Positions 5,625 through 31,041 of a stretch of DNA of 35,473 nt are shown here, in pieces. Position numbers and translations under genes: made by a program. Every line of letters begins with the position of its first letter. Within the stretch, counting starts at the first letter, position 1. The notes under the pieces are model-generated. The model did not search any database and was not told the DNA's origin. It saw only the letters and a program-made list of their open reading frames with translations. Location: NCBI GenBank assembly GCA_027310665.1, contig DAIDAJ010000026.1, positions 1 through 35,473 of the forward strand, read 5' to 3'. The stretch is from Sideroxydans sp. (GTDB lineage: Bacteria > Pseudomonadota > Gammaproteobacteria > Burkholderiales > Gallionellaceae).

Positions 5625-8000
5625 TTAAGTTTGGGCGTTACCTTTCTCGGCCAACTTGCGCCATGTCTCCAGCAGCGTATCGGGATTGAGCGACATGGTC
5701 TGGATACCGATCTGCACCAGCCACTGCGCGAAGTCGAAATGATCGGAAGGTCCCTGTCCGCAGATGCCGACGTATTTGTTCAGGCGGTTGCAGGTGGTGA
5801 TCGCCATCTCCAGCAATACCTTCACCGCCGCATCGCGTTCGTCGAAACGGTCCGCCACCAGACTGGAATCGCGGTCCAGGCCCAGCGTCAGTTGCGTCAG
5901 GTCGTTGGAGCCGATGGAGAATCCGTCGAAGTATTGCAGGAACTCTTCGGCCAGCAGCGCGTTGGAAGGTATCTCGCACATCATGATGAGGCGTAATCCC
6001 TTGTCGCCGCGTTTCAGGCCGTGCTTCTCCAGCGTGGCGACCACGTCGCGCGCTTCCTGCACGGTGCGCACGAACGGCACCATCAGTTCGACATTGGTAT
6101 AGCCGAGCGTCTCGCGCACCTTTTTCATGGCGCGGCATTCCAGCTCGAAGCAGTCGCTGAAGTTCGCCGCCACATAGCGACCCGCACCGCGGAAACCGAT
6201 CATCGGATTCTCTTCCATCGGCTCGTAGATCTCGCCGCCCAGCAGTTTGCGGTATTCGTTGGATTTGAAGTCGGACAGGCGGACGATCACCGGCTTGGGC
6301 CAGAACGCGGCCGCAAGCGTGGAGACGCCTTCGGCGATCTTCTCCACGTAGAACTCGACCGGACTGGCGTAACCCGCGGAACGCTGCAGCACGGCGTCAT
6401 GCAATTTGCCGGGCAACTTGTTATGTTCCAGTACCGCCTTTGGGTGGATACCGATCAGGTTGTTGATGATGAATTCGAGACGCGCCAGGCCGACACCGGC
6501 GGAGGGCAGCTGCGCGAATTCGAACGCCAGAGTGGGGTTGCCAACGTTGAGCATCAGCTTGACCGGAATGGCAGGTAGTTCGGCTTCGCTGTGCACGACG
6601 ACCTCGAACTGCAGTTTGCCGTGATACACGAATCCGGTATCGCCTTCGGCGCAGGAAGCGGTGACGATCTCGCCCTCCTGCAATGCCGTGGTGGCGTGGC
6701 CGCAGCCGACGATGGCCGGGATGCCCAGCTCGCGCGCGATGATCGCAGCGTGGCAGGTGCGTCCGCCGCGATTCGTAATGATGGCGGAAGCCTTCTTCAT
6801 CACCGGCTCCCAGTTCGGGTCGGTCATGTCGGTGACCAGCACGTCGCCCGCCTGCACCTTGTCCATCTCGGCCGTGCTGGCGACGATGCGCACGCGGCCC
6901 GTGCCGATCTTCTGCCCGATCGCGCGGCCTTCGACCAGCACGTCGCCGCGTTGCTGCAGACGGTACTTTTCGGTGCCGCCGCTGCCAGCGTTCGACTTCA
7001 CTGTCTCGGGACGCGCCTGCAGGATGTACAACTTGCCGTCGATACCGTCCTTGCCCCATTCGATATCCATCGGGCGACCGTAGTGTTTCTCAATGGAGAC
7101 GGCGTAACGCGCCAGCTGCAACACGTCCGCATCGCTCAGGGAAAAACGCTGCTGGTCGGCCACGGGCACCGGCTCGATGCGGGTGGAGCGTCCGGCGGAA
7201 CGTTGCTCGTCGAACACCATGCGTTGTTGTTTGGAACCCAGGCTGCGGCGGATGACGGCAGGGAAACCCGCTGCCAGCTGGGGCTTGTGCACATAGAACT
7301 CGTCCGGATTGACCGCGCCCTGCACCACCATCTCGCCCAGACCGAAGGATGAGGTGACGAACACCGCATCGCGGAAACCGGATTCGGTATCCAGCGTGAA
7401 CAGCACGCCGGACGCCCCCAGATCGGAACGCACCATGCGCTGCACGCCGGCCGACAGGGCGACATCGGCGTGCGTGAAATCCTTGTGCACGCGATAGGAG
7501 ATGGCACGGTCGTTATACAGCGAGGCGAACACTTCGCGTATCGCGTGCAGGATGTTGTCTATGCCCTGGATGTTCAGGAAAGTCTCCTGCTGGCCCGCGA
7601 ACGACGCGTCGGGCAAGTCTTCCGCCGTGGCCGAGGAGCGCACCGCGAAACTGCCTTCGCCTTCGGCGGAGAGTTTTGCATAGTGCGTACGAATCTCGTC
7701 TTCCAGGCGCTTCGGCAACGGCGCCTCGACGATCCAGCTGCGTATCAGGCGCCCGGCTTCCGCCAGTGCCGTGACATCTTCCACGTTCAGCGTGACCAGC
7801 GCCTGCTCGATACGCTTGTCCAGTCCGTCATTCGCCAGGAAATCGCGATACGCCTGCGCCGTGGTGGCAAACCCGCCGGGCACATTCACGCCGGACGAAC
7901 TCAGGTTGGAAATCATTTCGCCAAGCGACGCGTTCTTTCCTCCCACCTCCGGGATATCAGCAAGGCCCAGAGACTGGAAGGGAATGACGTAGGGGTGCAT
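5625..8000 (-). CDS. ppsA: Phosphoenolpyruvate synthase (pyruvate, water dikinase)
   Basis: The 791-aa cytoplasmic enzyme converts pyruvate + ATP + water to PEP + AMP + phosphate, the entry to gluconeogenesis from C2/C3 compounds. The N-terminal ATP-grasp domain (about 1-335) contains [29 protein letters not shown] and the DIEWGKDG segment. The swivelling phospho-histidine domain carries [11 protein letters not shown], with catalytic H417 and regulatory T415 two residues before it. The C-terminal TIM barrel binds pyruvate ([12 protein letters not shown], then [10 protein letters not shown]). Length and order match the family. The ATG at 8000 has AGGAG upstream. The gene follows the rnf operon on the same strand after an 81-base gap, so it could be cotranscribed or have its own promoter. 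The T-x-H arrangement is the known target of PpsR, whose gene lies at 19755-20570. Confidence 0.97.
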
Positions 8001-8081: not shown

Positions 8082-8261
8082 TTAGTGATTCTTGTTGTTT
8101 TCGCACGTGTCGCCGGAACATTTGCCGCAGCACCCCTCGCCCATTCTGCGCGCCGCGCCGAATTCCGGATGGCGATGTGCAAACCAGTTGGCGGCGGACT
8201 GCACCAGCACGAACGCCAGCATGACAAAGAGCAACAAACCGATCGTGTACAGATAGATCAT
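8082..8261 (-). CDS. Small membrane protein with four C-terminal cysteines, last gene of the rnf operon (NqrM-like)
   Basis: This short frame encodes 59 aa. Its ATG at 8261 overlaps the rnfA stop in an ATGA, the same coupling used at the four preceding rnf junctions, which argues strongly that it is real. Residues 2-21 (MIYLYTIGLLLFVMLAFVLV) form one membrane helix. The short tail is polar and ends with the cysteine cluster GEGCCGKCSGDTC (C44, C45, C48, C53). The layout resembles NqrM (DUF539), the small membrane protein with four cysteines that is needed to insert iron into the NqrD/NqrE site of Na+-NQR. RnfA and RnfE are the homologues of NqrE and NqrD. A role in maturing the Rnf iron site is therefore my inference. 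I cannot show homology by alignment here, and it could instead be an accessory subunit. Confidence 0.8.
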   Translation of the reverse strand: MIYLYTIGLLLFVMLAFVLVQSAANWFAHRHPEFGAARRMGEGCCGKCSGDTCENNKNH

Positions 8262-8845
8262 TCCCCACCCCCGATGCCGGAAAAGCCCATGAACGACAGG
8301 GACAATAAGCCGCCTATCACGACGCTGAGCGCTGCGCCCTGCACCAGCGTCGGCACATTGGAGAGTTGCATGCGTTCGCGCACCCCTGCCATCAGGATCA
8401 GCGCCAGCGTGAAACCCATGCCGCCTCCGATGCTATAGGCCAGCGACTGGGCGAAGTTGTAGTGGCGGGCGGTCTGGAACAGGGCGACACCGAGCACCGC
8501 ACAGTTGGTGGTGATCAGCGGAAGATAGATGCCCAGTTGCCGGAACAGTTCGGGAAACGTCTTTTTCACGAACATCTCGACCAGCTGCACGGCGCAGGCG
8601 ATGACCGTGATGAAGGTGATCACGCTGAGGAACTCGAGATGGAAATGCACCAGCACCATGTTCAGAAAGTAGGCGGAGACCGAGGCCACCAGGATCACGA
8701 AAGCGGTCGCGATGCCCATCGGCACGGCAGTGCTGAGTTTCTGCGAGACGCCGAGGAACGGACACATGCCCAGGAACATCGCCAGCACGAAATTGCCCGG
8801 CAGGATGGTGGTCAGCAGGATATTGGCAACGGAATCGTTGTTCAT
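8258..8845 (-). CDS. rnfA: Rnf complex membrane subunit RnfA
   Basis: This 195-aa integral membrane subunit has about six helices and belongs to the RnfA/NqrE family. Diagnostic motifs are NFVLAMFLGMCPFLGVS (C28) and LPLITTNCAVLGVAL (C115). These two cysteines, together with the matching pair in RnfE, hold an iron or [2Fe-2S] centre within the membrane. The C-terminus ends LSFMGFSGIGGGE. The start at 8845 overlaps the rnfE stop by 4 bases; an upstream in-frame start at 9034 would only translate rnfE sequence in another frame. RnfA helps carry electrons across the membrane between ferredoxin/RnfB and the RnfG/RnfC side while ions are moved. Confidence 0.96.
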   Translation of the reverse strand: MNNDSVANILLTTILPGNFVLAMFLGMCPFLGVSQKLSTAVPMGIATAFVILVASVSAYFLNMVLVHFHLEFLSVITFITVIACAVQLVEMFVKKTFPELFRQLGIYLPLITTNCAVLGVALFQTARHYNFAQSLAYSIGGGMGFTLALILMAGVRERMQLSNVPTLVQGAALSVVIGGLLSLSFMGFSGIGGGE

Positions 8846-9477
8846 GGCTGGGCTCCTTGCAGTTGTGCGTTGCGTTTCTTGTTGATGTGGCGGAACGCGG
8901 CGATGGTGATGAGCCAGAAACCCAGCACGAAGAAGCCGCCGGGCGGCAACACCATCACCACCCAGGGCTGGAAGTGATCGCCGAACAAAGCCACGCCGAA
9001 CAGCTTGCCTGCGCCGAGGATCTCGCGCACGCAACCGATCAGGAACAGGCCCAGCGTGAACCCCAGCCCCATGCCGATCGCGTTGGTCGTGGCAGGCAAC
9101 GGCGGATTCTTCGCGGCGTGCGCTTCGGCCCGGCCGAGCAGGATGCAGTTGGCCACGATCAGCTTGATGTAGGCGCCGAGCGCCTGGTAAAGGTCAAGGC
9201 TGATGGCTTGGATCGCGTAGTCGACCACGGTGACGAACGTGGCGATGATGACGATATAACTGGCGATGCGCACCTGCTTGGGGATGGCATGGCGCAGCAG
9301 CGACACCAGCAGGCACGAGGTCCCCAGCACAAAGGTGGTGGCCAGCCCCATGGAGATGGCATTCACCGCCGACACCGTGACTGCAAGCGTCGGGCACATG
9401 CCCAGCACCATGACAAAGATCGGATTCTGTTTCCAGAGTCCGTCCAGGAATTCGTCGAAACTGGAAGGCGTGCTCAT
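8842..9477 (-). CDS. rnfE: Rnf complex membrane subunit RnfE
   Basis: The 211-aa polytopic membrane protein belongs to the RnfE/NqrD family. It has the paired cysteine motifs VLGMCPTLAVT (C28) and IVANCILLGRAEA (C111), plus the conserved NAIGMGLGFTLGL and REILGAGKLFG segments. It is the partner of RnfA in forming the intramembrane iron site. The C-terminal tail is short and basic (INKKRNAQLQGAQP). An AGGAG lies eight bases before the ATG at 9477, just past the end of a palindromic repeat that occupies the 3' end of rnfG. Both ends overlap neighbours by 4 bases. Confidence 0.96.
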   Translation of the reverse strand: MSTPSSFDEFLDGLWKQNPIFVMVLGMCPTLAVTVSAVNAISMGLATTFVLGTSCLLVSLLRHAIPKQVRIASYIVIIATFVTVVDYAIQAISLDLYQALGAYIKLIVANCILLGRAEAHAAKNPPLPATTNAIGMGLGFTLGLFLIGCVREILGAGKLFGVALFGDHFQPWVVMVLPPGGFFVLGFWLITIAAFRHINKKRNAQLQGAQP

Positions 9478-10298
9478 GCGTGTGCTCCTTTACTGGAGAA
9501 GGGAGAAGAGTTAAGTGCCATTTGAGAAGAGTGAAGAGGGAAGGGGGATGTCCACCCCGCGCCATCGGCGCGACCCTCCCTGCCGGGAGGGTTACCCTTA
9601 ACCCTTCCCTCCTCCCCCTTCTCATTGATTCTTAATTGATCAAGATGCGGAACCAGTTTTGGCAACAGGTTCTGCGCGGATTCGTTGATACCCCGGCCCA
9701 CCGCCTTCGACGTCACCGTCGCACCGGCGATGGCATCGATCTGCCAGGGGTTTGCCTTGGTGCCGTGCTTGACCGTCTTCACCGCGTTGGCAAGGCTTTG
9801 CAGGTCGGTCGACAGGCGCACATCCAGCGCCTCGAAGTTCTGCAGGAATGCCTTGTCGGTGAGTATCTTGTCTCCGATGCCCGGGGTTTCGCGCATGGAG
9901 ATCACCCCGATGCCGGTGATGGCCTGCTTGTCCACGTCGTAGGCATAGAGTATGCGCACCTGGTCGGCGTAACCGGAGGAAGAGGCTTCCGCGGCGATGC
10001 CGGTCAGTTTGTCCGCGACATCGTACACCGCATAAAAGACCACCGCTCCGGCGGGTGCCTTGTCTATATCCTCGGCAACGGCGATCCCGCTGCCAGTCGC
10101 AAAATACGGCACCACTTTCTTGGCGTTCGGCAGCACCTTGAACACCTGCCTTTCCAGGGCCAGTTTCTTGTTGGCATTCACTGCCGGCAGCGTGAACTGG
10201 TAGACGCCGACGATGATGATGCCGCAGATGACTGACACCAGGCCCAGCGTGCGCACCATCGCAAAGCTCGGCGTATTGATCTCTTGGGTGTCGCTCAT
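9474..10298 (-). CDS. rnfG: Rnf complex FMN-binding subunit RnfG, with repeat-derived C-terminal tail
   Basis: This 274-aa protein has one N-terminal membrane anchor (about residues 15-36) and a periplasmic FMN-binding domain with a covalent flavin site. The attachment motif is DAIAGATVTSKAV, with T194 as expected FMN-bearing threonine; the usual Ser/Thr three residues before it is Ala191. ETPGIGDKI is another conserved RnfG/NqrC segment. The conserved domain ends near residue 225 (LVPHLDQLRINEK). The remaining 49 residues, rich in Gly, Pro, Arg and Ser, are encoded by a palindromic repeat (9495-9625) and have no counterpart in typical RnfG. The frame stays open through the repeat and ends at an ATGA overlap with rnfE. 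Flavinylation would need an ApbE enzyme, not seen in this window. Confidence 0.93.
   Translation of the reverse strand: MSDTQEINTPSFAMVRTLGLVSVICGIIIVGVYQFTLPAVNANKKLALERQVFKVLPNAKKVVPYFATGSGIAVAEDIDKAPAGAVVFYAVYDVADKLTGIAAEASSSGYADQVRILYAYDVDKQAITGIGVISMRETPGIGDKILTDKAFLQNFEALDVRLSTDLQSLANAVKTVKHGTKANPWQIDAIAGATVTSKAVGRGINESAQNLLPKLVPHLDQLRINEKGEEGRVKGNPPGREGRADGAGWTSPFPLHSSQMALNSSPFSSKGAHA
9495..9625. repeat. Palindromic repeat element, copy in the 3' end of rnfG
   Basis: The element has GA-rich outer arms (about 9495-9545 and the complement of about 9601-9623) around two hairpins: CGCGCC-ATC-GGCGCG (9558-9572) and ACCCTCCC-TGCC-GGGAGGGT (9573-9592). A copy in the opposite orientation at 12645-12750 is nearly identical over about 60 bases, differing in the 3-base loop and a few other sites. 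It forms part of the rnfG reading frame. Confidence 0.85.
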
Positions 10299-11329
10299 GA
10301 TTTACCCTTTTTCCCGCCGAGTATGCGGGGCTGATTGAACTGGTCCAGCAACGATCCTGTCGCATTGGCGATCAGGATGGCGTACATCACACCTTCGGTC
10401 AGACCTCCAAAGTAACGGATCACCACGGTCAGGATGCCGATCAGCGCGCCGTACAGCCAGATGCCGCGCGGGGTAACGGGCGAAGTTGCCATGTCGGTCG
10501 CCATGAACCACGCACCCAGCATCAGCCCGCCGGAAAGCAGCACAAAGGTCGGCGTGGGATAGCGTGCCGGTTGCGCCAAATGAAAGGCCCAGGCCAGCAG
10601 CATCGCGCTGCCCAGCACCGCGACCGGGATGCGCCAATCAAGGAACTTCCGGTACGCCAGATACAGGCCGCACAGCAGGATCAGGATGGCCGAAGTTTCG
10701 CCCGCGCTGGCGGTGATATTCCCGGTCAGGAAATCCATGGAAGAGGCGGTGATGTTTTCAAATTTCCAGCGTGCCAACGGCGTCGCGCCGGTAAACGCGT
10801 CCATGCCCTGCTGCTTGACCCAGAGCGCGATTTCCGGCGGCACCATGAACGGCGCAGTCAGCGACGACGGAATGAATTCGCTGAAGCGGTGCGGCATATA
10901 GGCGGGCACCCAGGTGCTGATCGCCGTCGGGAATGCGGCCTGCACGAAGGCGCGGCCGATCAGCGCCGGGTTGAACGGGTTCTGTCCCAAGCCGCCGAAC
11001 AGCGACTTGCCCAGCCAGACTGCCGCAAAGCCGGCCACGGCGCCCATCCATAACGGAAAGGAGGGTGGCAAGGTCAGCGCCAGCAGCACGCCGGTGATGA
11101 CCGCGCTCCAGTCGGACAACGAATTCCCGTTGTCCCTGATCATATTGTTGATACGCTCCGCCGCCAGGCAGGCCAGCGTAACGACCAGGATCAACGCCGC
11201 GGCCGACAGTCCGTATTGCCAGATGGAAAACGCGCAGATCGGCAACAGCGAATACACCACGTTGCGCATGATCACGGGGACATCGCGCCCGCTGTGCTGG
11301 TGGGGCGAGGTACGTAACTCTATGCTCAT
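10295..11329 (-). CDS. rnfD: Rnf complex membrane FMN subunit RnfD
   Basis: The 344-aa protein is an integral membrane subunit of the RnfD/NqrB family with around nine helices. The covalent flavin motif is perfect: DAFTGATPL, with T183 the FMN-linked threonine. Other signatures are SAVITGVLLALTLPP and FGGLGQNPFNPALIG. RnfD works with RnfG to pass electrons through two covalently bound flavins while ions cross the membrane. It overlaps rnfC by 4 bases upstream and rnfG by 4 bases downstream. The length is normal for the family, and nothing in the sequence looks broken. Confidence 0.96.
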   Translation of the reverse strand: MSIELRTSPHQHSGRDVPVIMRNVVYSLLPICAFSIWQYGLSAAALILVVTLACLAAERINNMIRDNGNSLSDWSAVITGVLLALTLPPSFPLWMGAVAGFAAVWLGKSLFGGLGQNPFNPALIGRAFVQAAFPTAISTWVPAYMPHRFSEFIPSSLTAPFMVPPEIALWVKQQGMDAFTGATPLARWKFENITASSMDFLTGNITASAGETSAILILLCGLYLAYRKFLDWRIPVAVLGSAMLLAWAFHLAQPARYPTPTFVLLSGGLMLGAWFMATDMATSPVTPRGIWLYGALIGILTVVIRYFGGLTEGVMYAILIANATGSLLDQFNQPRILGGKKGKS

Positions 11330-12771
11330 ACGGTGGCCTTTTTACGGTTGAGCGCCTTGGCGATGCGGAACTGCTGCACCAATGGAATATGCGAGGGACA
11401 GACATAACTGCAGCAACCGCACTCGAAGCAGCGGTCTAGGTTGTAGCGCTCGGCCATCAGCTCGTATTCGCGTTTGGCAGCCAGCAACCCCAGTTGCGAC
11501 GGGTTGAGGAACTTCGGACAGACCTTGAGGCATTCGCCGCATTTGATGCAGGAATAGCTGCGCTGCGTTTCCGCCGGCAGCTGCCCTTTGCCGAACGCGA
11601 GCACGCCGGAAGTCCCTTTGGTGACGGGTACATCCAGCGACGAGATGGTCATGCCCATCATCGGCCCGCCGAGGATGACCTCGCTTGCGCTGCTGCGCGC
11701 GCCGACCTGCTCCAGCAGGAAGCGCAGCGGCGTGCCGATCGGCACGACATAATTGCCGGGGCGTTCCACCGCCGGGCCGGCCACGGTGAGGACGCGCTCG
11801 ACCAGCCCTTCTCCGGACGGCAGCAAGCGTCCGAGATAGGCCAGTGTCATCACGTTGTTGACCAGCACACCAATCGAAGCGGGGCGCTCCCCTGCCGGTA
11901 TCTCGCGCCCGAGCAGCGCGTAGATGATGGTGTCTTCGGCACCCTGCGGATACTTGGTCTCCAGCGCCTTCACCGTGATGCTGCCGTCTGCAGGCAACGC
12001 AGCCTCAATGGCGGCGATGGCATCCGGCTTGTTGTCCTCGACGCCGATCACGGTGCGCGGCGCACCGCTGGCCTTCATGGCGATGCGGATGCCGCGCATC
12101 AGGTCCTGCGTGCGCTCCACCATGACGCGATGGTCGCAGGTGAGGAAAGGTTCGCATTCCGCGCCGTTCACCACCATGGTGTCGATCACGGTATCCGGCG
12201 GCACGCTGAGTTTCACGTGCGCGGGGAACGTCGCGCCGCCCAGGCCGGAGATACCCGTATGCTGGATCGCCTCCAGCAATCCTTTCTGGTCCAGCGAGTC
12301 GACATCGAGCGGCGCGCGCACCTGTACTTCCTGGCCGTCGGCCTCGTAGACACGGATGGTGATGGAATCCACCATCTTGCCGTTGGCGGCGGGCATCAGG
12401 CCGATGGCTTCCACCACACCGGTGGCCGGTGCATGGACCGGCAGGGACACGAATCCGTCCGCGGTGGCGATGACCTGGCCGCGCAATACCTCCTGCCCCA
12501 CACGCACGCAACAGATTGCCGCTTTGCCAATATGCTGCGACAGCGGCACGACCAGCCGCGGCGCGAACGCCAGGCGGCGTATCGGCAGGTTGCCGGTCTC
12601 CTTGTGGTAGTCCGGATGGATGCCGTGCTCGAAGGTCGCGTTACGAGAGAAGAGGGAAGAGAGAAGAGAGAAGGGAAAGAACCCTCCCGGCAGGGAGGGT
12701 CGCGCCAAAGGCGCGGGGTGGGCATCCCCCTTCCCTCTTCCCTCTTCTCCGATATGCACGCTCGTGGCCAT
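11326..12771 (-). CDS. rnfC: Rnf complex NADH-binding Fe-S subunit RnfC, with repeat-derived N-terminal insert
   Basis: The 481-aa membrane-associated subunit contains the flavin/NADH-binding fold (GISGLGGATFPAHVK, VNGAECEP) and two [4Fe-4S] motifs at its C-terminus: C408/C411/C414/C418 and C448/C451/C454/C458. In Rnf it exchanges electrons with NAD(H). The ATG at 12771 has a strong GAGGAGG ribosome site and lies 10 bases after the oxidoreductase gene. Conserved sequence only begins at about residue 47 (FEHGIHPDYHKETGNLPIRR). Residues 8-44 are encoded by a palindromic repeat, the same family as in rnfG but inverted. The frame passes through it intact. The C-terminal extension of the E. coli RsxC type is absent. 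Confidence 0.95.
   Translation of the reverse strand: MATSVHIGEEGRGKGDAHPAPLARPSLPGGFFPFSLLSSLFSRNATFEHGIHPDYHKETGNLPIRRLAFAPRLVVPLSQHIGKAAICCVRVGQEVLRGQVIATADGFVSLPVHAPATGVVEAIGLMPAANGKMVDSITIRVYEADGQEVQVRAPLDVDSLDQKGLLEAIQHTGISGLGGATFPAHVKLSVPPDTVIDTMVVNGAECEPFLTCDHRVMVERTQDLMRGIRIAMKASGAPRTVIGVEDNKPDAIAAIEAALPADGSITVKALETKYPQGAEDTIIYALLGREIPAGERPASIGVLVNNVMTLAYLGRLLPSGEGLVERVLTVAGPAVERPGNYVVPIGTPLRFLLEQVGARSSASEVILGGPMMGMTISSLDVPVTKGTSGVLAFGKGQLPAETQRSYSCIKCGECLKVCPKFLNPSQLGLLAAKREYELMAERYNLDRCFECGCCSYVCPSHIPLVQQFRIAKALNRKKATV
12645..12750. repeat. Palindromic repeat element, copy in the 5' end of rnfC
   Basis: GA-rich outer arms (12645-12678 and the complement of 12727-12750) flank ACCCTCCC-GGCA-GGGAGGGT (12681-12700) and CGCGCC-AAA-GGCGCG (12701-12715). 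It is the inverted relative of the copy in rnfG. No clear target duplication is seen. It lies wholly inside the rnfC frame, between the start codon and the conserved domain. Confidence 0.85.
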
Positions 12772-12781
12772 CTCGTCCTCC

Positions 12782-17704
<4,923 letters not shown>

Positions 17705-17712
17705 GATTTCCC

Positions 17713-18594
17713 CTATGCCTCAACAGCGGCTGGTAATGGTTGGATACGAATGATTTTTTTGGCGGATTTGCCCTTGATGATCCGATCACCCTCGAGCCAG
17801 ACGATGGCTCCGGTGGGACAGCGGTCGATCGCGCGAGGACTCGCGCTGCCGTTCGAGGCATAGTCGATCACGGCGAGGTTGTTCTCCAGATGGATCAGTC
17901 CGGGCGCGGCGTCGACCACACAGCGTCCGCAAGCCGTGCACGCCACTTCGCAGGATGCTTCGGCAGCATCGCCATCTGCCTCGTTGCGGCAAGCCATCCA
18001 CAGTTTGTGAGATACGCCGTGTATCGAGAACAGGTTCTTGGGGCAGATATCGACACAGTCTCCGCACGCCGTGCATTTGGCCAGATCGACCACCGGCAAT
18101 CCCTGGCCATCCATATGGATGGCATCGAATTCGCACACGTCGGCACAATCGCCCAGGCCCAGGCAACCCCAGGCACAACTCTTGCCACCCCCGCCCGCCA
18201 CTGCTGCGGCACGGCAGGAAGAAAGCCCCGCGTAATGGGCACGCATTTTGGCGACATGCTTGCCGCCGGCACAGGCCAGGCGCGCCACGCGTTTTTCGAC
18301 ATTGCCCATGGCAACGCCCAGCATGGCGGCGATCTTCTTGTTTTGATCCGGCGTATTGACCGAGCAGGAAGCCGGTTCGATCAGGCCCGCAACGACTCGC
18401 TCGGCAAAGTTGCGGCAACCCGCCGTGCCGCAGGCGCCGCAATTGGAATGGGGGAGCATCTCTTCAACCAGACTGATGCGGGGGTCTTCGTACACATAGA
18501 GCCGCCTGTCTGCGATGGCCAGAAAAAATGCCAGCAGACCGCCCAAGACGGCCATGAACGCTCCCGTGACAAGCACGCTGTTTACGATTTCCAT
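17713..18594 (-). CDS. rnfB: Rnf complex ferredoxin-type subunit RnfB, long multi-cluster form
   Basis: This 293-aa protein has one N-terminal membrane helix (about 5-27) and a cytoplasmic Fe-S region. The first cluster motif C52/C55/C60/C77 (NCGACGTAGC) is the RnfB/ApbC-type Fe4S domain. It is followed by three further cysteine groups: C140/C144/C150/C154, C174/C177/C180/C184, and C215/C219/C222/C225 with C259. This resembles the long RnfB of clostridia and Bacteroides rather than the roughly 190-aa enterobacterial RsxB. RnfB is the entry or exit point for ferredoxin electrons. It is the first gene of the operon, divergent from a LysR gene, with a GGGGAGAG ribosome site before the ATG at 18594. 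The next gene encodes a ferredoxin-dependent oxidoreductase, which fits direct electron exchange. Confidence 0.94.
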   Translation of the reverse strand: MEIVNSVLVTGAFMAVLGGLLAFFLAIADRRLYVYEDPRISLVEEMLPHSNCGACGTAGCRNFAERVVAGLIEPASCSVNTPDQNKKIAAMLGVAMGNVEKRVARLACAGGKHVAKMRAHYAGLSSCRAAAVAGGGGKSCAWGCLGLGDCADVCEFDAIHMDGQGLPVVDLAKCTACGDCVDICPKNLFSIHGVSHKLWMACRNEADGDAAEASCEVACTACGRCVVDAAPGLIHLENNLAVIDYASNGSASPRAIDRCPTGAIVWLEGDRIIKGKSAKKIIRIQPLPAAVEA

Positions 18595-18823: not shown

Positions 18824-19771
18824 ATGGACACCGATAAAAAGAGTTATTACAAAAATAATCGTCTTAAGCAGATGCGCGCATTTTGCGAGGTCGTTCGAAC
18901 CGGAAGCGTTACTTTAGCCGCACAAAGACTATTCCTGAGCCAACCCTCGGTGACTTTGCAGATCCAGGCAATGGAACGGGAAATGGGCGTGACAGTATTT
19001 GAGCGCCGCGGTCCAGTACTCAAGCTGACACCTGATGGAGAGGCGCTGCACGCGCTGGCAAAACCGCTGGTGCTTGGCATAGACAGCCTGCAGGAAAATT
19101 TTGCCGCGCAGCACGGCAAGCTGGATTCGGGGGTGCTGAACATCGGTGCTGGCGAGTCCACTATTCTCTATATCCTGCCGGAAGCGGTCAGTCGTTTCGT
19201 TACCGCGCACCCTCGCATCCAGCTCAAGATAGACAATGTGACCGGACGCGATGGACTGAAGATGCTGCGGGCTGACGAAATCGATTTTGCCGTTGGTTCC
19301 ATGCTGGACGTGCCCGACGACATCACCTATCAACCCGTGGCGACCTTCGACCCCGCACTCATCGTCCCGCTGAACCATCCGCTGGCCAGCCATCCCTCGG
19401 TCACGCTGGAAGAGATCAGCCAGTACGGGCTGATCCTGCCGCCCCGCCATCTTTCGACCTGGCGCATGGTCAAATACGTGTTCCAGCAGCACAACCTGAC
19501 CTTTACCGTGACACTGGAAGCCGGAGGCTGGGAAGTCATCAAGAAATACGTGGAATTGGGCATGGGCATCTCCATCGTGACCGACATCTGCCTGACAGGC
19601 ACCGAAAAACTCGTGAGCATCCCGCTCAACCAGTACTTCCCACAGCGTGGCTACGGTCTGGTGTTGCGCAAAGGCCGCTTCCTGTCGCCGCAAGCCAGAC
19701 GCTTCGTCGAGATACTGCAGGAAGTTTACGGTCTGGAAGCCACGCCGACCCAGCTTAGCGTTCGAGATTGA
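18824..19771 (+). CDS. LysR-family transcriptional regulator (CysB-like)
   Basis: The 315-aa regulator has an N-terminal winged helix-turn-helix (about residues 10-70: MRAFCEVVRTGSVTLAAQRL, then QPSVTLQIQAMEREMG) and a periplasmic-binding-like effector domain to the C-terminus. The ATG at 18824 has GGGGAGG just upstream; a TTG at 18797 would also keep the frame but lacks a ribosome site. LysR regulators are normally transcribed divergently from their targets. The divergent partner is rnfB and the rnf/oxidoreductase operon, so control of that operon is likely. The effector is unknown; acetyl-CoA metabolites or redox signals would make sense. Its 3' end overlaps the convergent ppsR gene by 17 bases. 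Confidence 0.9.
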   Translation: MDTDKKSYYKNNRLKQMRAFCEVVRTGSVTLAAQRLFLSQPSVTLQIQAMEREMGVTVFERRGPVLKLTPDGEALHALAKPLVLGIDSLQENFAAQHGKLDSGVLNIGAGESTILYILPEAVSRFVTAHPRIQLKIDNVTGRDGLKMLRADEIDFAVGSMLDVPDDITYQPVATFDPALIVPLNHPLASHPSVTLEEISQYGLILPPRHLSTWRMVKYVFQQHNLTFTVTLEAGGWEVIKKYVELGMGISIVTDICLTGTEKLVSIPLNQYFPQRGYGLVLRKGRFLSPQARRFVEILQEVYGLEATPTQLSVRD

Positions 19772-20570
19772 GCGCCTGCATCAGTTGCACGGCCAGTTCC
19801 TCGATCGAACGTGAAGTGGTGTCAAACCATTTGATGCCTTCGCGCCGCATCATCTTTTCCGCCGCCGCCACTTCATAGCGGCAGTTCTCCAGAGAGGAAT
19901 ATTTGCTGTTCGGACGGCGTTCGAAGCGTATGCGCTGCAACTGATCGGGTGCGATGGTCAGGCCGTACAGCTTGCCGCGGTATGGCTGCAATCTCGACGG
20001 CAGGACATCCCGCTCGAAATCTTCGGGGATCAGCGGATAGTTCGCGGCCTTCAGCGAGAACTGCAAGGAAAGATACAGGCTCGTGGGCGTCTTGCCGACG
20101 CGCGACACGCCCACCAGTATGATGTCGGCGCTCTTCAGGTCGGAATCCGAAACGCCGTCATCATGCGCCAGTGCAAAATTCATGGCCGCGATGCGCGCGT
20201 TGTATTCCGGATTGGCCTGCCCGTGCGAACGCCCCATCGCGCGCGTGTACTTGCAGCCCAGTTCCTGTTCCAGCGGCGCGATGAAAGCGTCGAACAAGTC
20301 GATGAAGAACGCTTCGGCCTGGTGCAGGATCGCGCCGAACTCAGGGTTCGTCTGCGTCAGGATCACGATGGGACGTACACCTTCGCGCCGGCTCAATTCA
20401 TTGATGCGCGCCAGGCAATCCCTGACCTTGTCTTCGCTGTCCACAAAAGGGTATCGCACCGGGCGGAATTCGATCCCCTCGAACTGCGCGAGCAAACCGT
20501 GCCCCAAAGTCTCTGCGGTGATACCGGTGCCATCCGACACATAGATGACGGTTCGCTTCTGGGTCGTCAT
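19755..20570 (-). CDS. ppsR: PEP synthase regulatory protein (bifunctional kinase/pyrophosphorylase)
   Basis: This 271-aa protein of the DUF299/PSRP family begins VIYVSDGTGITAETLGH and has the nucleotide-binding loop GVSRVGKTPTS and the conserved AMGRSHG and LTQTNPEFG segments. In E. coli and plants the family phosphorylates a threonine next to the catalytic histidine of PEP synthase or PPDK using ADP, and removes it with phosphate. The PpsA in this window has exactly that T-x-H site (T415, H417). The gene is convergent with lysR and lies 81 bases downstream of the large symporter gene on the same strand, so it could be cotranscribed with the transporter. A GGAG ribosome site precedes the ATG. 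Confidence 0.95.
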   Translation of the reverse strand: MTTQKRTVIYVSDGTGITAETLGHGLLAQFEGIEFRPVRYPFVDSEDKVRDCLARINELSRREGVRPIVILTQTNPEFGAILHQAEAFFIDLFDAFIAPLEQELGCKYTRAMGRSHGQANPEYNARIAAMNFALAHDDGVSDSDLKSADIILVGVSRVGKTPTSLYLSLQFSLKAANYPLIPEDFERDVLPSRLQPYRGKLYGLTIAPDQLQRIRFERRPNSKYSSLENCRYEVAAAEKMMRREGIKWFDTTSRSIEELAVQLMQALNLER

Positions 20571-26797: not shown

Positions 26798-27394
26798 TCA
26801 CTCCTCGTCCGGATCCTTGTACTCCTTGGGCAGATGGTGGGCGATACCCTTGTGGCAATCGATGCAGGTTCCGCCTTCGGCTTTCGCCTTCATGTGCTTG
26901 TTGTAGATCGTCAGCTTTTGTATGTCGCCGCTCATCGCGTCGAAATTGTGGCAGTTACGGCATTCGCGCGAATCCGATGCTTTCATGCGCTCCCATTCAT
27001 GCGTCGCCAGCTCCATCCGGTGAGCTTCGAATTTTTCCGGCGTATCAACGAAGCCGGTGAGCGCACCCCAGACTTCATTGCTCGCCTGGATCTTGCGCAG
27101 CATCTTGTGTCCCCAATCCTTGGGTACATGGCAATCGGAACAAATGGCGCGCACGCCGGTCCGGTTGGCGAAATGGATGGTCTTCTTGTATTCCTGGTAC
27201 ACGTTGTCGCGCATCTCGTGGCAACCGATGCAGAATTCCAGCCGGTTCGTCGCCTCCATGGCGGTGTTGAAGCCCCCCCAGAAAATGATGCCGGAGAAAA
27301 AGCCCACCACGAGCAGTGCCAGCAATGAGTATTTCGCGCTGGGCTGTTTCAGAACGCTCCAGGTGCGTTTCAGGATGCCCGGTTTATTATTCAT
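26798..27394 (-). CDS. cymA: Tetraheme cytochrome c quinol dehydrogenase, NapC/NirT family (CymA-like)
   Basis: The 198-aa inner-membrane cytochrome has one N-terminal anchor (about 22-44) and a periplasmic domain with four CxxCH heme sites: C55, C85, C145 and C177. The first heme motif (EFCIGCHEM) and the WGHKMLRKI and SRECRNCH segments are typical of NapC/NirT. These proteins exchange electrons between the quinone pool and periplasmic partners. Next to mtoDAB it is the expected inner-membrane end of the iron-oxidation chain, passing electrons from the periplasm to quinones, possibly for reverse electron flow. A GGAGA ribosome site precedes the ATG. A terminator-like hairpin separates it from mtoB. 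Confidence 0.94.
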   Translation of the reverse strand: MNNKPGILKRTWSVLKQPSAKYSLLALLVVGFFSGIIFWGGFNTAMEATNRLEFCIGCHEMRDNVYQEYKKTIHFANRTGVRAICSDCHVPKDWGHKMLRKIQASNEVWGALTGFVDTPEKFEAHRMELATHEWERMKASDSRECRNCHNFDAMSGDIQKLTIYNKHMKAKAEGGTCIDCHKGIAHHLPKEYKDPDEE

Positions 27395-27450
27395 GATTCT
27401 CTCCGCTTTAACTTATCGAATCTATTGAGCAAAATTCGCATCGAGGCGGG

Positions 27451-27483
27451 AAAAAAGACGGTGCACAAAATTGCCGTGCACCG
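27451..27483 (-). terminator. Terminator-like hairpin between mtoB and cymA
   Basis: CGGTGCAC (27459-27466) pairs with GTGCACCG (27476-27483) around a 9-base loop. On the minus strand the stem is followed by TCTTTTTT (complement of 27451-27458). The signal is that of an intrinsic terminator or attenuator, placed 32 bases past the mtoB stop and 57 bases before the cymA start. Confidence 0.7.
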
Positions 27484-27514
27484 CTCGCTCGATCGCTTTC
27501 TGGATTCATTATTG

Positions 27515-29950
27515 TCAGAAGGTATAGAAATAACTCGCGCTCACGACGCTGACGGCATAGCTCGGCGATTGTTGGTTGGTCGGCAGCATGCTGGTCGCCG
27601 TATATCCCGTCTGGTAGGCATTGTAATAATAGTCATTTGACCTCAGGTTCTGGTAGAGATAACTGATCCTGACCTTGCTTGCCTTATCCAGCTTGTAGTC
27701 GCCACCGAGATTGAGCTGGATCAGCTCGCTCCTGATGTCGGGAGGAGAGCCGCAGGCGTATCCAGCATTGCTGGGGGTAGTGCAAGCGACGTTAACCCAG
27801 TTATCGGTTGTCGTGTAGCCTGTCTTGCTCAATGAGTACGTCAAGTTTGCAGCCAGGTCGAGTTTTCCTCCCATCAACCCGCCATGTTTGGCGTTGATCC
27901 CAACGGTATTGTCGTCCTGAGTCAGCGAATTGTTCCAGGGCTGCGTGAGGGAACCGTTAGTGATGGCCGTTCCGTATGTTGCCGCTTGATGATTCCATTG
28001 ATCATTCAGGAGGTCGCGCTTCCGGTTCTGTACCGTCACATAGGCTGTGGCGCTTGTATTTTCATCAAAGGTATAACCGACATCCAGGTTTGCACTCCAC
28101 GCGCTGCCGTTTTGCACACCCAGTGCCGCGCCGTAATTGTCATTCACGTAACGACCGTTCAGGCCCACATTCAGTTTTTCCGAAGCCTGCCAGTTGACCC
28201 CGGCCTTCACCATTTGCTCATTCCGCGAAGCATCGAAGTAGGCCGTGTAACCAGGCAGCTCATAGCCCTGATTATTTGCCTGCATCGGATTATAGAAAGC
28301 AGGGTTGACGTCTGCTCTGCGGCGGGAATAGGAGTAGCCGGCATTGAGCTTCACATCTTCGCTGGCCTGCAAATGGTAGTTGGCTGCCAGCTTGTTATCG
28401 GTGCTATCGGGAACCTGGGCACATGAAGTGCCAAGTGCGTAGTAGGCAGCTGCCAACGCCGGCCCTGTCGCACCGCTGCCTATGGCAGGACTTGCAGCGA
28501 GGGCTTGCGCCGCGGTAAGCGATGTGTTGCACCAGCGACGAATCTGTTCATGTTCGAATCCGACATTGAGCTTTTGGCGCTGGCTGACCCGATAATCGGC
28601 ATTCAACTCGAACTGGGTCTTTCTGTTGCTCATGGGCGTGCTTATGGCAGTTTGCGCTGCCCCGCCCAAGTCGAGGAAGGTGTAAGTGCCCGCCGCCGTC
28701 TGGTTGTCGTGATCGTTGAATTTCATGCCGGCAGACAACGACAAGTCCTTGGTCGTCTGGTTGGTCAACTTCAGGTCGACGTGCTTTGTAACCACCAGCC
28801 CGTTCAGGGAAGATTGCGGCAACCCGCCGACCTGCATCTGATCCTGGTTACCGAAAGCCGCATTCTGGGTGGTGCGCCCGTAAGACACGCCTCCCACCAG
28901 TTTTGTGGCTTGCGAGATGTCGTAGCCTCCATTCAGGTTCAACTGCTGGAAATAATTGTCCGGTGCTGTGCTCAACGTATCCACCGGGAAGGCGACTCCG
29001 GGGTCGGTACCAGTCGCGTTGTTGGGAGCAACAGCGCCCAAGGTGGCAAACGGGTTCGAGAAACTCACGCCATTGTAAGTGTCGGTAAACTTCGAAAAGT
29101 AGTAGCTGCCCGTGAAGTGCGCCTTGTCTCCCATCCAGTTCAGCGCCAGATTCATCGTATCGGTCTGGTAGTTGGTGGGGTTCATCAGCATAAGGATGTT
29201 TTCGCCCCGGACTCCCGTGATGCCGTTTGTGATGTTCGCATCGGATGGTGCGGAGATCAGCTTCGCGCCGTCCTGCGTCAGACGGTTATAGTCGAACTGC
29301 ATGCTCCATTGCTGGTCGATATGATAGCCCGCATTGAATTTGGCATTCTTGCGATCCGAATGGCCGTCCTCGGTATGAAAATACGCCAGTTGATTCGGCG
29401 TCAGCGCCTGCGCTCCGTAAGGAGGCACCACCCCGTTTACCAGTGCAGGCTTGGTCCGCGAATCGACGACACCGAAGGCGTTGGGCAGTATGAAGCTGTT
29501 TCCCCCCATGCTTCCTTGCAGGGGCGTCTGGAAGGTGTCGGTGATGTTGTGACGCAACTCGTCGTAACCGATGCCGAAGCTCCACTTGCCCTGCTTGCTC
29601 ATGCCGACACCGAGCTCGCGGGAGGTCGTGCCGAGATCGCTGCCCTTGAATTCCCAGCGATTGAGTCCGTCGCCCCCGTCATGGGAGTCATAGGCATCGC
29701 CGCCTTGTGCCTTGAAGTTGCCGATCAGGTAGGCACCCTTTTTATTCAGGCCATTATATTCACCGAATTTGGCGGAATCCTTGGACACCCCCTCCACACC
29801 GACGTCGACTGAGTTCGTGGGGTGCGTCAAAGCCGCAACGTCTTCGTCTTCGGCTTTGGCCGCCAGAGGCATGGCCAGCATCACCATCAACGCGCCCTGT
29901 ACCGCCAGGGTCAACTTGCTGACTGCAAAAAGCTCTTTATTGGTTTTCAT
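27515..29950 (-). CDS. mtoB: Outer-membrane porin of the iron-oxidation conduit (MtrB/PioB family)
   Basis: This 811-aa outer-membrane protein has a signal peptide (TLAVQGALMVMLAMPLAAKA, about residues 12-32) and the family N-terminus VDVGVEGVSKDSAKFGEYNG. A long series of amphipathic strands follows, ending SYFYTF with the terminal phenylalanine. Size and pattern match the 26-strand barrel of MtrB and PioB, which sheathes a decaheme cytochrome to make an electron conduit across the outer membrane. There is no N-terminal CxxC as in Shewanella MtrB; the few cysteines lie in later loops. The ATG at 29950 with AAGGG upstream is chosen. An earlier ATG at 30040 would add 30 residues read from the mtoA 3' end. 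It starts 23 bases after mtoA. Confidence 0.94.
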   Translation of the reverse strand: MKTNKELFAVSKLTLAVQGALMVMLAMPLAAKAEDEDVAALTHPTNSVDVGVEGVSKDSAKFGEYNGLNKKGAYLIGNFKAQGGDAYDSHDGGDGLNRWEFKGSDLGTTSRELGVGMSKQGKWSFGIGYDELRHNITDTFQTPLQGSMGGNSFILPNAFGVVDSRTKPALVNGVVPPYGAQALTPNQLAYFHTEDGHSDRKNAKFNAGYHIDQQWSMQFDYNRLTQDGAKLISAPSDANITNGITGVRGENILMLMNPTNYQTDTMNLALNWMGDKAHFTGSYYFSKFTDTYNGVSFSNPFATLGAVAPNNATGTDPGVAFPVDTLSTAPDNYFQQLNLNGGYDISQATKLVGGVSYGRTTQNAAFGNQDQMQVGGLPQSSLNGLVVTKHVDLKLTNQTTKDLSLSAGMKFNDHDNQTAAGTYTFLDLGGAAQTAISTPMSNRKTQFELNADYRVSQRQKLNVGFEHEQIRRWCNTSLTAAQALAASPAIGSGATGPALAAAYYALGTSCAQVPDSTDNKLAANYHLQASEDVKLNAGYSYSRRRADVNPAFYNPMQANNQGYELPGYTAYFDASRNEQMVKAGVNWQASEKLNVGLNGRYVNDNYGAALGVQNGSAWSANLDVGYTFDENTSATAYVTVQNRKRDLLNDQWNHQAATYGTAITNGSLTQPWNNSLTQDDNTVGINAKHGGLMGGKLDLAANLTYSLSKTGYTTTDNWVNVACTTPSNAGYACGSPPDIRSELIQLNLGGDYKLDKASKVRISYLYQNLRSNDYYYNAYQTGYTATSMLPTNQQSPSYAVSVVSASYFYTF

Positions 29951-29973
29951 GATAATTGCCCTTTTTCCTGAAA

Positions 29974-31041
29974 TTAGCGATGCAAGTACGCGCCGGCTGG
30001 GCTGTTCGAACCGTGAACCATGACGTGGCAGTTCATGCACGCGCGACCAACAGCATTTGTATTCGGTGTCGCCGGGTTAGTCGCATTTGCGATCAGTCCA
30101 TTTCCGCCCTGGATCCCTGCAACGTTCGCGCCATATGAAGCCTGGCTGTTGTGCGGACCGTCATGGCATTCCTGGCACAGGAACGGAGGACGCGATTTCA
30201 GCAACGGCGTGATGTTGGAACCGTGCGGCGTGTGGCAATTGGTGCAATCCTCGGTCGCCGGCTGGTGCTCCCACAGGAACGGGCCGCGTTTCTCGGCATG
30301 GCAGGTGTAGCAGGTCTCGGTCACCGTCGCCTTCTTCAGCATCTTGGGGCCGGTGGAACCGTGCGGATTGTGGCAATCGGAGCAGACAACCTTGCCGGCA
30401 TCGATCGGGTGTGTCGATATCTTGTGGGTATCGGCACGCTGATCCTTGTGGCAAGTGAAGCAAACTTCGGTCTGCGTCTTTCTGTCGCGCACTTTGTCGA
30501 CGGGCGCATGCACTTTGTGGCAGTCGTTGCATGCGATCTGGTTGTTCTGGTGCTGGCCGCCGTCCCAGTTGGTGCGGTTGGTGCCTTTATGGCAGCTCAG
30601 GCACTGGCTGGCGCGAACCTTGTCGTCAGACACCGCATAGGCGCCTTTCTTGAAAACGACATCGGGCGCAGCGCGCCCCTTGACATTGGGATCCCCCTTC
30701 AGGTGCTTTTCGCTTTCACCATGGCAGGTCTGGCAGTTCGGCGTACGCGAATCACCCCTGACACCGTGCTTGGTCTGGTAGATGGCCAGGATCGGTGTTG
30801 TTTCGCTTTCATCGTGGCAACGTGTGCAGATCGCATCTCTTTTCAGGGACTCTTGGGCGGACTTGGACTTGGCCGCTTCCATGTTGAGATCCGGAAGCTT
30901 GTTCTCCGCCGCAGGCTGATTCTGCTCCGCCGACGGTGCGTCCGTCGCTGTTTGGCCTTCCGCCGCCAGCAGGCTGGTCGCGGTTCCCATGCTGGCGATG
31001 AATGCACACATCACCATCGTTTTTCTTAATGATATTTTCAT
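29974..31041 (-). CDS. mtoA: Periplasm-facing decaheme cytochrome c of the Mto conduit (MtrA/PioA family)
   Basis: The 355-aa secreted cytochrome has ten CxxCH motifs, with first cysteines at 72, 103, 147, 171, 194, 220, 244, 266, 289 and 335. A signal peptide (about 1-27, ending SLLAA) is followed by an Ala/Pro/Glu-rich linker of about 40 residues before the first heme. MtrA/MtoA inserts into the MtrB/MtoB barrel and carries electrons across the outer membrane. In Sideroxydans it oxidises extracellular Fe(II). The repeated CxxCHxPHGS pattern is typical of the family. The ATG at 31041 has AGGGAAG upstream. It lies between mtoD and mtoB on one strand. Confidence 0.96.
   Translation of the reverse strand: MKISLRKTMVMCAFIASMGTATSLLAAEGQTATDAPSAEQNQPAAENKLPDLNMEAAKSKSAQESLKRDAICTRCHDESETTPILAIYQTKHGVRGDSRTPNCQTCHGESEKHLKGDPNVKGRAAPDVVFKKGAYAVSDDKVRASQCLSCHKGTNRTNWDGGQHQNNQIACNDCHKVHAPVDKVRDRKTQTEVCFTCHKDQRADTHKISTHPIDAGKVVCSDCHNPHGSTGPKMLKKATVTETCYTCHAEKRGPFLWEHQPATEDCTNCHTPHGSNITPLLKSRPPFLCQECHDGPHNSQASYGANVAGIQGGNGLIANATNPATPNTNAVGRACMNCHVMVHGSNSPAGAYLHR

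Follow-up and report, generated by a model that had tools for sequence, protein, structure and literature searches.

The window analyzed here, a stretch of 35,473 nucleotides from a contig of Sideroxydans sp. (Gallionellaceae), carries an rnf operon in the minus-strand order rnfB-PFOR-rnfCDGEA-orf59. Its last frame, orf59, runs from 8261 to 8082 and encodes 59 amino acids (translation MIYLYTIGLLLFVMLAFVLVQSAANWFAHRHPEFGAARRMGEGCCGKCSGDTCENNKNH*); it is a feature of the minus strand only, as the plus strand at 8082-8261 reads differently. The operon and its flanks comprise the following genes, given in the direction of transcription.

19755..20570, minus strand: PpsR, PEP synthase regulator
17713..18594, minus strand: rnfB, first gene of the operon, 293 aa, with FeS and 4Fe-4S domains
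12782..17704, minus strand: PFOR-like 2-oxoacid:ferredoxin oxidoreductase, 1640 aa, between rnfB and rnfC
11326..12771, minus strand: rnfC, 481 aa, with RnfC_N, Complex1_51K, SLBB and ferredoxin domains and a repeat-encoded N-terminal stretch
10295..11329, minus strand: rnfD, 344 aa
9474..10298, minus strand: rnfG, 274 aa, with an FMN_bind domain and a repeat-encoded C-terminal extension
8842..9477, minus strand: rnfE, 211 aa, two conserved cysteines present (GMCPT, ANCIL)
8258..8845, minus strand: rnfA of the PFOR-linked type, 195 aa, two conserved membrane cysteines present (GMCPF, TTNCA)
8082..8261, minus strand: orf59, 59 aa, with an N-terminal helix (about residues 2-30), HPEFG at 31-35, and cysteines C44, C45, C48 and C53
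5625..8000, minus strand: phosphoenolpyruvate synthase gene (pps), which follows orf59 after 81 nt

The PFOR-like enzyme carries an additional C-terminal ferredoxin-like domain at residues 1564-1617 and scores 418.5 bits against a pyruvate-specific equivalog model of 1167 positions with a cut-off of 911.35 bits, so that pyruvate is a candidate substrate only. RnfA of the window falls narrowly below the TIGR01943 cut-off (227.4 versus 229.3 bits). Together, RnfA and RnfE retain all four conserved membrane cysteines, which we take to be the holders of the intramembrane [2Fe-2S] cluster. An earlier note on this DNA had described an ATGA overlap between orf59 and rnfA as the fifth in a row, and the coordinates bear this out: the ATG of orf59 overlaps the stop of rnfA, following overlaps at rnfC/D, D/G, G/E and E/A. 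Its description of orf59 as closing the operon is less certain: pps lies downstream on the same strand, and a consensus scan detected no minus-strand terminator-like site between the two. A minus-strand promoter-like site is located at 8085-8056 (10/12; 0.4 expected in the scanned region), and pps may be transcribed by read-through from orf59 or from a fresh start.

A separate feature of the operon is a 70-nt element with a palindromic core, present in two inverted copies (94%) at 9524-9593 and 12680-12749. Both are translated in frame, one in the C-terminal extension of rnfG, within which the rnfG/rnfE overlap falls, and the other in the N-terminal stretch of rnfC. A single related copy occurs near the rnfC start of another genome, G069 (6492-6559 of locus L062), where rnfG stops shortly before rnfE and lacks the extension.

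The orf59 protein begins with a strongly hydrophobic stretch (residues 1-19, Kyte-Doolittle mean 2.5), and an AlphaFold2 model built on a 26-row alignment places a single helix at residues 2-30 followed by a tail of low confidence (mean pLDDT 69.5), consistent with the one membrane helix initially claimed; the four cysteines reported at the same time were found at their positions in the translation. All lysines and arginines lie C-terminal to the helix core. Basic residues mark the cytoplasmic side of a membrane protein under the positive-inside rule, and the tail is therefore predicted to be cytoplasmic, giving a probable N-out/C-in topology as judged from charge.

Short frames without a database family invite the objection that they are not genes, and both properties apply to orf59. 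Conservation leaves that reading a practically negligible chance. The protein had matches in 39 of 150 Gallionellaceae genomes at E <= 2.7e-8 (44 matched at E <= 0.01, of which five weak ones, at E 0.002-0.01, were left uncounted), and M1, Y3, V20, A24, A28, P32, E33, F34, G35, G41 and the four cysteines are invariant across 29 aligned members. Cysteine spacing and tail length vary among members: the core of the window protein is C45-x2-C48-x4-C53, and others have C-x(1-2)-C-x(3-5)-C. Two outcomes had been named beforehand as grounds for abandoning the proposal, a lack of conservation beside rnfA and an absence of protein-level selection, and neither occurred. rnfA adjoins orf59 in all 30 retrieved loci (one of them cut by a contig end), every one of which preserves the ATGA overlap and an open rnfA frame, and dN/dS lies between 0.04 and 0.26 in 10 pairs among five close genomes. 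orf59 is a real, conserved protein under purifying selection.

The distribution of orf59 follows one type of Rnf. Of the 150 family genomes, 129 have RnfA/RnfE-type genes and 38 have RnfA of the window type (E <= 1e-60, 65-100% identity); the genome-context survey across rnf operons that had been proposed found orf59 in 38/38 of the latter, with 0-9 nt between its start and the point where the rnfA alignment stops. The 39th genome with orf59 (G091) has an rnfA truncated at a contig end, and 90 Rnf-bearing genomes of the family have no confident orf59. In a sample of 300 genomes from the order, RnfA matched at E <= 1e-60 in 15, all of which carry orf59, 12 by profile and three by inspection. 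In these three, which belong to another family (f51; loci L121, L122 and L123, RnfA at 57-58% identity), the frame directly after rnfA encodes a diverged protein of 55 aa, which the profile did not pick up. It has a single hydrophobic stretch and a cysteine tail, lacks HPEFG and has only the C-x2-C-x4-C core in common with orf59, its remaining cysteines being placed elsewhere, and one of the three operons is visible only from rnfE onward. As the profile searches scored no more than 21 (order) or 15 (phylum) candidates per genome, distant members may escape, as those of f51 did. Among 398 genomes sampled from the phylum, RnfA of at least 65% identity occurred in three, the same three that have orf59, and the remaining RnfAs were at most 55% identical among the matches listed. 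Five weak phylum matches (E 5e-4 to 7e-3; G765, G733, G499, G735 and G638) were rejected, as six-frame reading revealed no small helix-plus-cysteine frame. Coverage beyond the phylum consisted of a peptide-pattern scan of all phyla with a single sequence, which returned nine loci; seven (L031-L037) are relatives, and two, from Alphaproteobacteria and Saccharopolyspora (L038 and L039; E 4e-5 and 7e-5), were taken as chance matches.

The rnfB-PFOR-rnfCDGEA arrangement was found wherever the retrieved stretch was long enough, and a tree of 78 RnfA rows separates the 39 PFOR-linked ones from the rest at a branch supported 100/100. Excluded from these rows were hits below 170 residues, duplicate sequences, additional hits at a place already represented, and four rows repeating PFOR loci. 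Besides this operon, the genome of the window carries two Rnf sets of the ordinary kind (L060 and L061), and it has a single orf59 match. No PFOR gene lies on the retrieved stretches of these two sets; the operon end of L060 shows no small cysteine frame on the operon strand, and L061 reaches its contig border before rnfE. A TIGR01943 search of this genome returned six places, of which five are rnfA and rnfE of the window, rnfA and rnfE on contig C54, and rnfA on contig C62. In the genomes searched, orf59 is found only with the PFOR-linked Rnf type.

The window protein matched no Pfam or NCBIfam family at E <= 10. Weak Pfam matches of the 29 members (DUF6234 in nine, best E 0.045; Mfp-3 in six; ROK in six; SCIFF in three, best E 4.6e-4; FeoB_C in three; and others) and weak NCBIfam matches of 26 members (SCIFF in three, 9.7e-4; Syntroph_Cxxx in two; PP0621 in one, 0.0073; and others) were attributed to composition, and an antibody chain found by a sequence search of the PDB at E 0.65 was rejected.

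NqrM (DUF539, PF04400) was the family initially proposed as kin. It resembles orf59 in size, in its one N-terminal helix and in its cysteine tail, and it serves NqrD/NqrE, the pair homologous to RnfE/RnfA, which holds the intramembrane [2Fe-2S] cluster described in the accessible text of PMC12174285; the same text, citing Kostyrko 2016 and Agarwal 2020, indicates that NqrM seems to be required for insertion of the [2Fe-2S] cluster into Nqr. A true NqrM homologue transferred into an rnf operon would account for the comparable size, N-terminal helix, basic stretch and four cysteines of orf59, but the profile comparisons make such an origin very improbable. PF04400 is absent from the families matched by the 29 orf59 members (hmmscan, E <= 1) and has no match in the genome of the window (E <= 10). 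When aligned by hhalign with 11 NqrM sequences (PF04400 matched 12 of 94 genomes of the class; one locus, L117, was left out), orf59 paired nine helix columns at 33% probability, or six columns at 12% when its profile was restricted to the family, and in neither case was a cysteine aligned. The G-S-C-G-G hallmark of NqrM and the long gap before its next cysteines are missing from the orf59 alignments, whereas HPEFG is orf59's own. Judged by these sequence comparisons, orf59 has no detectable common descent with NqrM. What endures of the proposed Rnf counterpart is a small membrane protein, conserved and specific to Rnf, that bears a cysteine tail and belongs to one Rnf type; the kinship with NqrM, sought both by family profile and by cysteine alignment, does not. 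RnfH of the Azotobacter vinelandii Rnf1 is likewise an additional small protein of one Rnf branch, but is set apart from orf59 by its description in the accessible part of PMC12174285 as a cytoplasmic protein that lacks a redox cofactor.

A closer parallel is offered by RseC (RseC_MucC, PF04246). The earlier note could name no protein of this kind specific to Rnf and thereby passed over RseC, a known Rnf-associated membrane protein with two helices and a C-x2-C-x5-C iron-sulfur motif (available portions of PMC11729352 and PMC9124969), located N-terminally (PMC11729352). RseC and orf59 share membrane attachment, a link to Rnf and a cysteine motif in a glycine-rich stretch, which is cytoplasmic in RseC and predicted from charge to be so in orf59; three relatives of orf59 (L055, L057 and L058) have the C-x2-C-x5-C spacing itself. 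They differ in that RseC is longer (a 130-position profile), with two helices and its motif at the N-terminus, whereas orf59 has 59 residues, the one helix and a C-terminal motif. PF04246 matched neither the window protein nor the 29 members, and an alignment of the two profiles covers the cysteine motif only (16 columns, 60%), a similarity that may be convergence.

The case for RseC comes from genome counts. The genome of the window has two RseC genes versus three Rnf sets, and across 57 family genomes the number of RseC genes over the cut-off equals that of ordinary Rnf sets (sets being counted as half of the RnfA/E hits) in 50: 17 of 18 genomes with PFOR-Rnf, 24 of 30 with ordinary Rnf only and 9 of 9 without Rnf. 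RseC equals the total of Rnf sets in none of the 18 PFOR-Rnf genomes, which are related and not independent (10 are of one genus). The seven departures are G021, G022, G027, G030, G049, G052 and G056. One genome of another family (G169) fits, with two rnfA matches against a single RseC above the cut-off and a further weak RseC hit below it. Among 14 control genomes, RnfA matched in E. coli, B. ihuae, T. maritima and M. acetivorans, and PF04246 matched in these and in C. glutamicum, three of the five exceeding the cut-off. In 10 of 32 RseC loci, seen with flanks of 1.5 kb at most, the gene immediately downstream of RseC is rnfA. The orf59 count is 1:1 with PFOR-type rnfA, and the RseC count follows the ordinary Rnf sets, a pattern that points to RseC over NqrM as the closer functional parallel to orf59. 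A shared RseC could serve the PFOR-linked Rnf too; none of the genomes searched had PFOR-Rnf but lacked an ordinary Rnf. According to the available text of PMC11729352, Rnf can be assembled without RseC in V. cholerae and A. woodii, and that of PMC9124969 interprets RseC as a regulator of rnf genes. As the function of RseC is disputed, the parallel bears limited weight.

We favor, tentatively and at a little under an even chance, the reading that orf59 is a dedicated accessory of the PFOR-linked Rnf, filling the slot of RseC or NqrM, and that it helps to assemble or protect the [2Fe-2S] site by means of iron or a labile Fe-S cluster bound to its tail. Metal binding, contact with RnfA/RnfE and a role in assembly are all putative. 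We propose that (i) orf59 would be made together with RnfA through translational coupling, (ii) its helix would serve as an anchor in N-out/C-in orientation, placing the tail at the cytoplasmic membrane face of RnfA/RnfE, (iii) the tail would hold iron or a labile Fe-S cluster and (iv) would pass it to the [2Fe-2S] site of RnfA/RnfE, or protect that site, so that (v) orf59 would take the place of RseC for this Rnf type. The complete linkage to window-type RnfA (38/38), the invariant cysteines and PEFG motif, the RseC counts and the kept cysteines of RnfA and RnfE argue for an assembly role. Against it stand the departures in RseC number (7/57), the variable cysteine spacing, the relatedness of the genomes, and the two ordinary Rnf sets of the window genome, which do without a second orf59.

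The main rival to an assembly helper is a permanent small subunit, whose tail would carry a metal or cluster, or would dock RnfB or PFOR onto the membrane core, for the passage of electrons between PFOR and Rnf. The PFOR gene between rnfB and rnfC is what distinguishes this Rnf type, and orf59 tracks that operon type wherever the retrieved stretch is long enough; the window genome, with ordinary sets free of PFOR on the retrieved stretches and a single orf59, fits the same idea, and the translational overlap with rnfA suits a fixed stoichiometry. We nonetheless consider a permanent subunit rather unlikely, given that cysteine spacing and tail length are more variable than would be expected of fixed ligands in an electron path (the f51 proteins share the C-x2-C-x4-C core only) and that a subunit role alone leaves the absence of an RseC for PFOR-Rnf unexplained. 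A redox sensor or operon regulator with a cysteine tail, or a metal-handling protein of the FeoB-associated type riding along with rnfA, is less probable again. The interpretation of RseC as a regulator in the accessible part of PMC9124969 lends the sensor some plausibility, but the 1:1 linkage to one Rnf type and the overlap with rnfA favor a role in the complex. FeoB-associated Cys-rich membrane proteins likewise combine one helix with a cysteine-rich tail; their profile (FeoB_associated, PF12669) matched only one of 29 orf59 members, at E 0.46, a chance level.

If orf59 is indeed an assembly accessory, a wider pattern may be envisaged in which each Rnf/Nqr branch has its own small membrane protein, with a cysteine motif on the cytoplasmic side, for loading the [2Fe-2S] site (NqrM, RseC or orf59), with orf59 having replaced RseC in the PFOR-linked Rnf; we hold this generalization to be possible, if doubtful. 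Among the matches listed in a literature search whose scope left most subscription papers outside, neither the orf59 protein nor the rnfB-PFOR-rnfCDGEA operon type was described, and the accessible portions of PMC12174285, PMC11729352, PMC9124969, PMC10734462, PMC5178258 and PMC3534657 contain no description of either.

The surroundings of the operon hint at its physiological setting. Of 14 Gallionellaceae stretches (two of which are the same contig), 12 have pps after orf59; of eight from other families, none does. With PpsR and PEP synthase on either side of the Rnf-PFOR operon, the arrangement suggests a single pyruvate/PEP module, in which PFOR-linked Rnf may power the ferredoxin-dependent formation of pyruvate, or be powered by the opposite reaction, and PEP would be the product. 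Elsewhere in the window, genes at 26798-31041 on the minus strand encode a DmsE-family decaheme cytochrome, an MtrB/PioB outer-membrane protein and a NapC/NirT-type cytochrome, presumably a group that forms an outer-membrane electron conduit of the Mto/Pio kind. For the iron-oxidizing Gallionellaceae, the function of Rnf is called unknown in the available text of a pangenome paper (PMC10734462). orf59 marks an Rnf type that is joined to a PFOR-like enzyme and, in the Gallionellaceae, often to PEP synthase. The role of RseC itself is disputed between regulator, stabilizer and Fe-S protein, and the pattern of RseC counts together with its adjacency to rnfA bears on that role. A stand-in for RseC of 59 residues, tied one-to-one to a single Rnf type, would, if that is what orf59 proves to be, be a small and separable handle on how the membrane cluster is inserted into RnfA/RnfE.
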